In this document: positions 22,102 through 23,613 of the stretch, piece after piece
Position numbering within the stretch: position 1 is the first letter of the stretch
Layout: each line of letters starts with the position of its first letter
The notes under the pieces: generated by a model
What the model was told of the DNA's origin: nothing
The model's input: only the letters and a program-made list of their open reading frames with translations
Database searches by the model: none
Origin: Nisaea sp.
Lineage (GTDB): Bacteria > Pseudomonadota > Alphaproteobacteria > Thalassobaculales > Thalassobaculaceae
Direction of reading: 5' to 3'
Length of the DNA: 64,000 nt
NCBI RefSeq assembly: GCF_017640745.1
Contig: NZ_JAEPQA010000001.1
Coordinates: 206,852 to 270,851 of the forward strand
Made by a program: the position numbers and the translations under genes

Positions 22102-23613
22102 TTATGCGTCGTCGGAGTCCTTCTTCGCGGCGGTCTTCTTCGCGGGAGCTTTTTTCGCCTGCGCCTTCTTCTTCTCGGCAGGCTTCTTGGCTGCCGCCTT
22201 CTTGGCCGGCTTCTTCTCCGCGCTCTCGCCCTCTTCCTCTTCCTTGAAGAGGTCTTCCGCGCTCACCGTCTTGTCGGTGACCTTGGCCATCTCGACGATG
22301 AAATCGACGATCTTGTCCTCGAGCAGCGGCGCACGGATGTTGGCCTGGGCCTGCGCGTTCTGCTGATAGAACTGCACGACCTGCTGTTCCTGGCCCGGAT
22401 ACTTCGTCGCTTCCTGATAGATCGCCCGCGCCACCTCCTCATCGGTGATGGAAATGTTGTTCAGGCGGCCGACTTCCTGCAGCAGCAGTCCGAGACGAAC
22501 CCGGCGCTCGGCGATGCCGCGATACTCGGCCTTCTCCTCGTCGCTCAGACCTTCGTCGGCCGCATGCTCGTGGTGATGATGATCGTGATCGTGATCGTGA
22601 TCGTGATCATGGTCGTGATCATGATCATGGTCGTGGTCATGATCATGCGCCCGCGGCTTCACCGCATTGCAGATCGCCTGGTACTCGGCATCGACCATGC
22701 CTTCCGGCACGCCGAAATCGTGCTTGCTTTCGAGCGCATCGAGCAGCGTGCGCTTCAGCTTGGCGCGTGCAGCACCCGCATATTCTTGCGACAGCTGGCC
22801 CTTGATCGCTTCCTTGAGGGTGTCGAGATCGTCCATGCCGAACAGCTTGGCGAACTCGTCGTCGATCACCGGATCGGTGGTCTCGCGGATCTCGGTGACC
22901 TCGGTCTCGAACACCGCGTCCTTGCCGGCGAGCGTTTCCTGGCCGTAGTTCTCCGGGAAGGTCACCTTCACGTCGACCTTGTCGCCCGCATTCACGCCGA
23001 CGAGCTGATCCTCGAAGCCCGGAATGAAGGTGCCCGAACCAAGCTCAAGATGATGTCCCTCGGCCGCACCGCCGTCGAACGCGACACCGTCGACAGTACC
23101 CTTGAAGTTGATGACGACGATGTCGCCTTCCTTGGACTTCCGCTTGCGCTTGATCGGCTCGGAGGTCTTGTGCTGCGAGGCCAGCTTGCCGATCGCCTCA
23201 TCAAGCTCCTTGTCGCTCGGCTCGGCGGTCAGGCGCTCAATCTCGAGAGTAGAGAAATCCACCGGTGTGATTTCCGGCATGATGTCGACGCTGAGGTTGA
23301 ACTCGAGATCGCCACCTTCCTCGAACGAGGTGATTTCGATCTGCGGCTGCGTGGCGGCACGCAGCTCACGCTCTTCCAGCGTCTTCTGGGAGGTCTCGTT
23401 GACCGTCTTTTCCAGGACTTCGCCCATGACGGACGGGCCGTAACGCTTTTTCAGAAGCGCCACCGGCACCTTGCCCGGACGGAAGCCCGGCATGCGGATG
23501 GTCGGGGCGAGCTGCGTCAGGCGCGCATCGACCTCGCCATTAATCGTCTCGGCGGGAATCACGACCTTGAATTCGCGCTTCAGGCCTTCGGAGGAAGTTT
23601 CGGTAACCTGCAT
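22102..23613 (-). CDS. tig: Trigger factor with His-Asp repeat and Lys/Ala tail
   Basis: Trigger factor is the ribosome-bound chaperone and prolyl isomerase. The ribosome-docking signature GFRPGKVP is at residues 43-50, the FKBP-type PPIase domain at about 150-245, and the rest is the SurA-like substrate-binding part. At 503 residues it is longer than the usual 430-450 for two reasons. Residues about 323-350 are eleven consecutive His-Asp dipeptides followed by HHHHEH (16 histidines). The last about 45 residues are an acidic patch, then a Lys/Ala/Pro-rich tail resembling histone H1. The His tract lies within the C-terminal substrate-binding region and should bind divalent metals. It is followed by clpP, as is usual. 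Confidence 0.96.
   Translation of the reverse strand: MQVTETSSEGLKREFKVVIPAETINGEVDARLTQLAPTIRMPGFRPGKVPVALLKKRYGPSVMGEVLEKTVNETSQKTLEERELRAATQPQIEITSFEEGGDLEFNLSVDIMPEITPVDFSTLEIERLTAEPSDKELDEAIGKLASQHKTSEPIKRKRKSKEGDIVVINFKGTVDGVAFDGGAAEGHHLELGSGTFIPGFEDQLVGVNAGDKVDVKVTFPENYGQETLAGKDAVFETEVTEIRETTDPVIDDEFAKLFGMDDLDTLKEAIKGQLSQEYAGAARAKLKRTLLDALESKHDFGVPEGMVDAEYQAICNAVKPRAHDHDHDHDHDHDHDHDHDHDHDHHHHEHAADEGLSDEEKAEYRGIAERRVRLGLLLQEVGRLNNISITDEEVARAIYQEATKYPGQEQQVVQFYQQNAQAQANIRAPLLEDKIVDFIVEMAKVTDKTVSAEDLFKEEEEGESAEKKPAKKAAAKKPAEKKKAQAKKAPAKKTAAKKDSDDA
22564..22647 (-). repeat. GATCGT/GATCAT hexamer repeat coding (His-Asp)n in tig
   Basis: This 84-base tract inside tig is built of hexamers CAY-GAY on the coding strand: eleven His-Asp units, then four His, Glu, His. 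The four units nearest the 3' end are identical (CACGAT), while the rest mix synonymous codons. That suggests old units kept for their amino acids and a newer expanded end. Confidence 0.9.

Follow-up and report, generated by a model that had tools for sequence, protein, structure and literature searches.

The stretch of DNA analysed here, called the window throughout, is 64,000 nucleotides long, and positions 22102-23613 carry the gene (tig) for a trigger factor (TF) of 503 residues; this gene and all of its features discussed below lie on the minus strand. Three Pfam domains, all above the curated cut-offs, follow each other in the TF order (Trigger_N, 3e-40; FKBP_C, 5e-18; Trigger_C, 1e-32), and the closest PDB folds are those of the Escherichia coli TF (2vrh and 1w26). 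The ribosome-binding signature GFRPGKVP occupies residues 43-50 (23464-23487), and G43, F44, R45, G47, K48 and P50 are invariant or nearly so among 27 TFs compared. The FKBP-type peptidyl-prolyl isomerase (PPIase) or head domain, residues 157-239 (22897-23145), is without the insert-in-flap domain of SlyD, FKBP_C being a single contiguous match to positions 2-93 of the 94 in the profile. The protein ends in a Lys/Ala-rich tail (residues 460-503; 22105-22236) that is predicted to be disordered (pLDDT about 40); it is histone H1-like and common to many, although not all, alphaproteobacterial TFs. The gene order tig-clpP-clpX-lon, with genes of complex I (nuo) beyond, looks ordinary and was set aside as uninformative on the tract described next. 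A reading of the sequence alone had placed complex I and a molybdenum-hydroxylase maturation module in the window; the former is borne out by NuoG, and the latter was not found among the subset of open reading frames scanned.

Residues 323-350 of the TF (22564-22647; tandem repeat finder, 22574-22647) read HDHDHDHDHDHDHDHDHDHDHDHHHHEH, that is, eleven consecutive His-Asp dipeptides followed by HHHHEH. Translation gives 16 His, 11 Asp and one Glu in 28 residues; the span, the His count and the eleven dipeptides are exactly as the sequence-only reading had them. The codons are mixed (His, eight CAC and eight CAT; Asp, three GAC and eight GAT). The run of four identical CACGAT units that had been singled out lies at 22582-22605 (residues 337-344) and is probably the most recent portion of the repeat. 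The 4.5 Mb genome has just two sites with three or more consecutive CAYGAY units, one in tig and one at the N-terminus of nitrile hydratase alpha, and a reversed control pattern gives zero matches in the same 4.5 Mb, which puts the TF tract far beyond chance. The nitrile hydratase alpha N-terminus (MSGDHHHHHHDHDHDHDH...) is the genome's only other tract of three or more His-Asp units and lies outside the window (L002; G000:C11:360309-360941).

An AlphaFold2 model of the TF (mean pLDDT 85.8) has an extended fold with two C-terminal arms, and its best Foldseek matches in the PDB are E. coli TF 2vrh and 1w26. The alignment with E. coli TF stops at E. coli residue 315 and resumes at 339, so that by alignment the tract stands in place of residues ~316-338. 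Arm 1 of the substrate cradle comprises residues 302-360 in E. coli (PMC5722895), and the break falls inside it, which identifies the tract with the arm-1 tip. In the model, one arm-1 helix precedes the tip loop (residues 304-318; 22660-22704; alignable with E. coli TF as far as residue 315) and another follows it (residues 358-384; 22462-22542; residue 366 aligned with E. coli 339). The loop between them, residues 319-357 (22543-22659), is predicted to be unstructured, with pLDDT about 50 at residues 321-350; since it joins two confident helices, the tract would lie outside the folded parts of the protein. According to the model, then, the tract belongs to a disordered loop at the arm-1 tip. 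E. coli TF shares the three domains and the fold, but has a short arm-1 tip without His where this protein has a 28-residue His-Asp loop. The earlier statement that an insert of this kind is missing from ordinary TFs holds for most of them but not for this family, in which a His-rich loop is the rule.

Comparison with the nearest species, whose TF is 98% identical over the whole protein and has a tract of equal length (28 residues), indicates how the tract has been maintained. Sixteen of its 28 codons differ synonymously and none non-synonymously, and none of the 56 first and second codon positions has changed, whereas the remaining 475 codons contain 79 synonymous and nine non-synonymous differences (synonymous excess in the tract, p=4e-6). 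The repeat DNA therefore appears to turn over fast while the protein sequence stays unchanged, which supports the earlier proposal that selection acts on the amino acids. The companion proposal of local slippage or homogenization also stands, since the run of four CACGAT units is missing from the nearest species, which shows a CATGAC run of its own.

The tract is neither absent nor random in close relatives, and the sequence-only reading survives on this point as well. The genome falls in the family of Thalassobaculum: Thalassobaculum fulvum (L008) and L043, which is of the same family, share one and the same blastp match. All five species of the genus carry it, with ~20 to 28 residues and 10 to 16 His, and a His-rich tract at the same site is found in eight of the ten family genera with a readable TF (g1, g5, g6, g7, g8, g9, g10 and g11). 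The TF loop is without His in the low-GC genera g3 and g12 and has just two His in two 1.5 Mb genomes of the family; such losses and reductions, together with its absence from most alphaproteobacterial TFs, mean that the tract is dispensable. Its length ranges from ~15 to more than 50 residues between relatives. Among 143 alphaproteobacterial TFs, 39 have a His-rich loop, eight a His-rich C-terminal tail and 96 neither. A tree of these 143 proteins, built with the loop and tail columns left out, requires 13 changes of loop state, at least six of them forced by well-supported branches. By this comparison the tract is old in this family and the neighbouring families f82 and f116, with several further gains or losses elsewhere. 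The tail form is found in Parvibaculum, Sphingomonas, Aestuariivirga and one Bradyrhizobiaceae MAG, so that the C-terminal tail appears as a second site for the tract on TF. Several TFs with a short arm loop (L010, L017, L027, L099 and others) have the His-Asp tract on this tail, with up to 29 His in L027. TFs with His-Asp tails were found in other phyla too, in matches fetched with His-Asp patterns and hence biased, which establish their existence but give no frequency.

The company kept by such tracts was surveyed in 387 alphaproteobacterial genomes, of which 49 have five or more consecutive His-Asp units, (HD)5+, somewhere; loci are listed for 48. TF, although a single gene among thousands, is the commonest carrier, with 19 of the 55 listed loci. 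The other 36 include 11 CobW/COG0523 GTPases, seven nitrile hydratases (six alpha, one beta), four TonB receptors, for which a metal role is assumed, and single loci for HypB, UreE, a NicO nickel transporter, a CDF exporter, CbiX, a ZnuC-like ABC protein and a heavy-metal P-type ATPase, making 29 in all (six near-copies were assigned by their siblings, and HypB and the ZnuC-like protein by reading). The relation to metals is unclear for the remaining seven: two FtsX-like permeases, two PPDK_N proteins, an RNase E, a cupin and one unknown. Judged by these assignments, most non-TF proteins with (HD)5+ tracts are proteins that handle metals. Only one of the 19 genomes with a TF tract (G301) has another (HD)5+ tract, and this rarity of co-occurrence gives no sign of a shared mutational cause.

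Several of these tracts were seen in other settings. N-terminal His-Asp tracts on nitrile hydratase alpha occur in at least six other alphaproteobacterial genomes and in G031 (L253), of a genus without the TF tract, and opisthokont nitrile hydratases have a His-rich stretch between their subunits (PMC3323583). A PEP-synthase-like protein (PPDK_N and PEP-utilizers mobile domain) of two genera of one family has a long HD/HG insert near the domain junction (L120:214-1581 and L121:405-1889; G210 and G285), and a ribonuclease E/G has an HD-rich insert in its N-terminal part (L083:1027-3030; G064).

Could the tract be no more than the product of neutral slippage of a hexanucleotide, allowed to persist because the loop is flexible? 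The number of repeat units does differ between species, and local runs of identical codons with an excess of synonymous turnover are what slippage would leave behind. However, all 50 loci read with five or more CAYGAY units are in the His-Asp frame, the codon changes are 16 synonymous to none non-synonymous, and the tract is retained over genera and recurs in TF and in metal proteins. The residues that vary point the same way. In 37 His-rich loops, leaving out HH and DD neighbours, 82 of 421 positions with His on both sides hold something other than Asp (28 Ala, 20 Gly, 10 Glu and others), whereas not one of 246 positions with Asp on both sides holds anything but His, although the loops were partly picked for their His content, which biases the test. 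The same asymmetry is seen in TF tails and in other His-Asp proteins. Frame, codon and His-versus-Asp data together led us to reject slippage as the main explanation, and we regard it as scarcely credible.

His is thus the residue that is kept, which argues for metal ligands rather than for charge or disorder. The side chain of His titrates near pH 6-7, and the loop could instead serve without metal, as a highly charged and disordered spacer, either to maintain the solubility of the arm tip or to adjust client binding to pH. Its predicted disorder agrees with such a role, as does the retention of a long acidic loop in lineages without His (L044; 47 residues with nine Asp, four Glu and no His). 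A role of this kind leaves unexplained both the constraint on His against the free replacement of Asp and the presence of the same tract on metal proteins, and we give it little credence.

Metal handling by the TF tract is supported indirectly, through the proteins that share such tracts and through peptide binding. The peptide Ac-HDHDHDHDH-NH2 binds Zn, Fe(II) and Mn with Kd values of 1.8e-7 M, 6.3e-6 M and 8.4e-5 M, respectively, through interchangeable sites, and among six His peptides it is the strongest binder of Fe(II) (PMC11938343). E. coli without TF is sensitive to copper, which aggregates proteins (PMC9040851), and TF is present in E. coli at ~50 uM (PMC5722895). With moderate confidence, we lean towards the view that the tract is a selected, disordered loop at the arm-1 tip that binds transition metals and acts as a distributed metal buffer or shield; metal binding in the cell, this role and the choice of metal we infer. 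The alternation of His and Asp would create many overlapping, weak and fast-exchanging sites. As TF is abundant and located at the ribosomal exit tunnel, the loop could turn it into a distributed buffer of low affinity and high capacity, taking up excess Zn, Ni, Cu, Co or Fe(II) and so protecting nascent chains, while still unfolded, from binding the wrong metal and from aggregation caused by metal; a further possibility is that it keeps metal near nascent metalloproteins. Because the affinities of the peptide are weak, the loop may hold no metal when Zn is at its normal buffered level. The variable length of the tract and its alternative position on the tail agree with a dose-like rather than a site-like function, which favours a buffer or shield over precise delivery.

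Another possibility is that TF changes shape or oligomeric state when its loop binds metal. Loading of the loop could hold the protein in storage or off the ribosome, so that chaperone activity would follow metal status. In E. coli, residues 320-325 and 332/336 of the arm-1 tip make contacts with the PPIase head in simulations (PMC3615003), and residues 323, 331, 335 and 336 shift when the ribosome-binding domain of the other subunit binds in the dimer (PMC5722895); the tract replaces this very region. The same variation in length and the tail alternative argue against so precise a switch, and we consider it unlikely.

A shade less likely again, in our estimate, is co-translational delivery, in which nascent metalloenzymes, for example urease or nitrile hydratase, would receive metal from the TF loop, as hydrogenase does from SlyD. 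TF works at the exit tunnel, and the genome encodes urease with a His-rich UreE, as well as the nitrile hydratase alpha with its own His-Asp tract. No SlyD-like FKBP with a His tail was found in the genome, which has just two FKBP proteins, and TF may therefore do part of the work that SlyD does elsewhere. Apart from TF, the only FKBP-type protein is a rhodanese-like fusion with an apparent signal peptide by reading (L233; G000:C21:31260-31529). Across 80 genomes the tract is associated with urease (22 of 29 tract-bearing genomes against 20 of 51 others; raw p=0.002) and with nitrile hydratase (raw p=0.04), but these associations are not phylogenetically independent, and only three supported independent contrasts are available. 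Moreover, seven of the 29 tract-bearing genomes are without urease and four without nitrile hydratase, and dedicated metallochaperones (UreE, UreG, COG0523) are already present. Other than TF, nitrile hydratase alpha and UreE, strong His enrichment was seen in this genome in ZnuC and a COG0523 GTPase, which are encoded next to each other and to a regulator of the Fur family.

His-rich chaperones of other kinds offer the closest comparisons. SlyD has a His-rich C-terminal tail that serves in nickel delivery and storage, and like the present TF it is a cytosolic chaperone that combines an FKBP PPIase domain with a disordered His-rich tract. It differs in its insert-in-flap chaperone domain, in having the tract as a C-terminal tail and in not working at the exit tunnel, whereas in TF the tract is internal, at the tip of a cradle arm, and the PPIase domain is without the insert. 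Membership in SlyD was rejected on these grounds: FKBP_C is contiguous, the C-terminus is Lys/Ala-rich and the tract is internal. In Helicobacter pylori, HspA is a GroES with a His/Cys-rich C-terminal extension that sequesters nickel (PMC7840056). It resembles our TF as a housekeeping chaperone that has gained a His-rich extension, one known to bind metal in HspA; it is a different chaperone, however, confined to Helicobacter, with a C-terminal extension in which Cys is present. The His-rich C-terminus of mycobacterial GroEL1 (DHDHHHGHAH) binds Cu(II) (PMC10170517). Here too a chaperone carries an HD/HH tract, and the metal sites of GroEL1 are degenerate and interchangeable, but the tract is the C-terminal tail of a chaperonin paralogue, whereas TF is the sole copy of the ribosome chaperone. 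The COG0523/CobW, UreE, HypB, ZnuC and CDF proteins have the same His-Asp tracts in the same bacterial class and are dedicated metal proteins, in contrast to TF, a general folding factor. With SlyD, HspA and GroEL1, the TF shares a disordered His-rich extension under selection. Such extensions are known on these three chaperones; within the full-text literature searched, whose reach excluded most subscription papers, no earlier description of a His-rich TF was found.

In summary, sequence comparison indicates that selection maintains the TF tract and that such tracts have appeared repeatedly among related bacteria; the most likely function of the tract is to bind transition metals at the site of protein synthesis. 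More tentatively, TF in these bacteria could be a metal-responsive or metal-delivering chaperone, one that would have evolved several times and that, with metal held at the arm-1 tip, either gives it to nascent metalloproteins at the exit tunnel or switches between ribosome-bound and storage forms; we hold this to be rather doubtful. The recurrent gains and losses of the tract provide natural comparison pairs, and the existence of many TFs without it means that the tract should be cleanly removable, which makes the idea directly testable. If true, a selected metal-binding loop on a general ribosome chaperone would bring metal handling to the exit tunnel and bear on the site and manner of metal entry into new proteins and on the protection of unfolded chains from the wrong metal, and a metal-responsive or metal-delivering TF would link the birth of proteins to the metal status of the cell.
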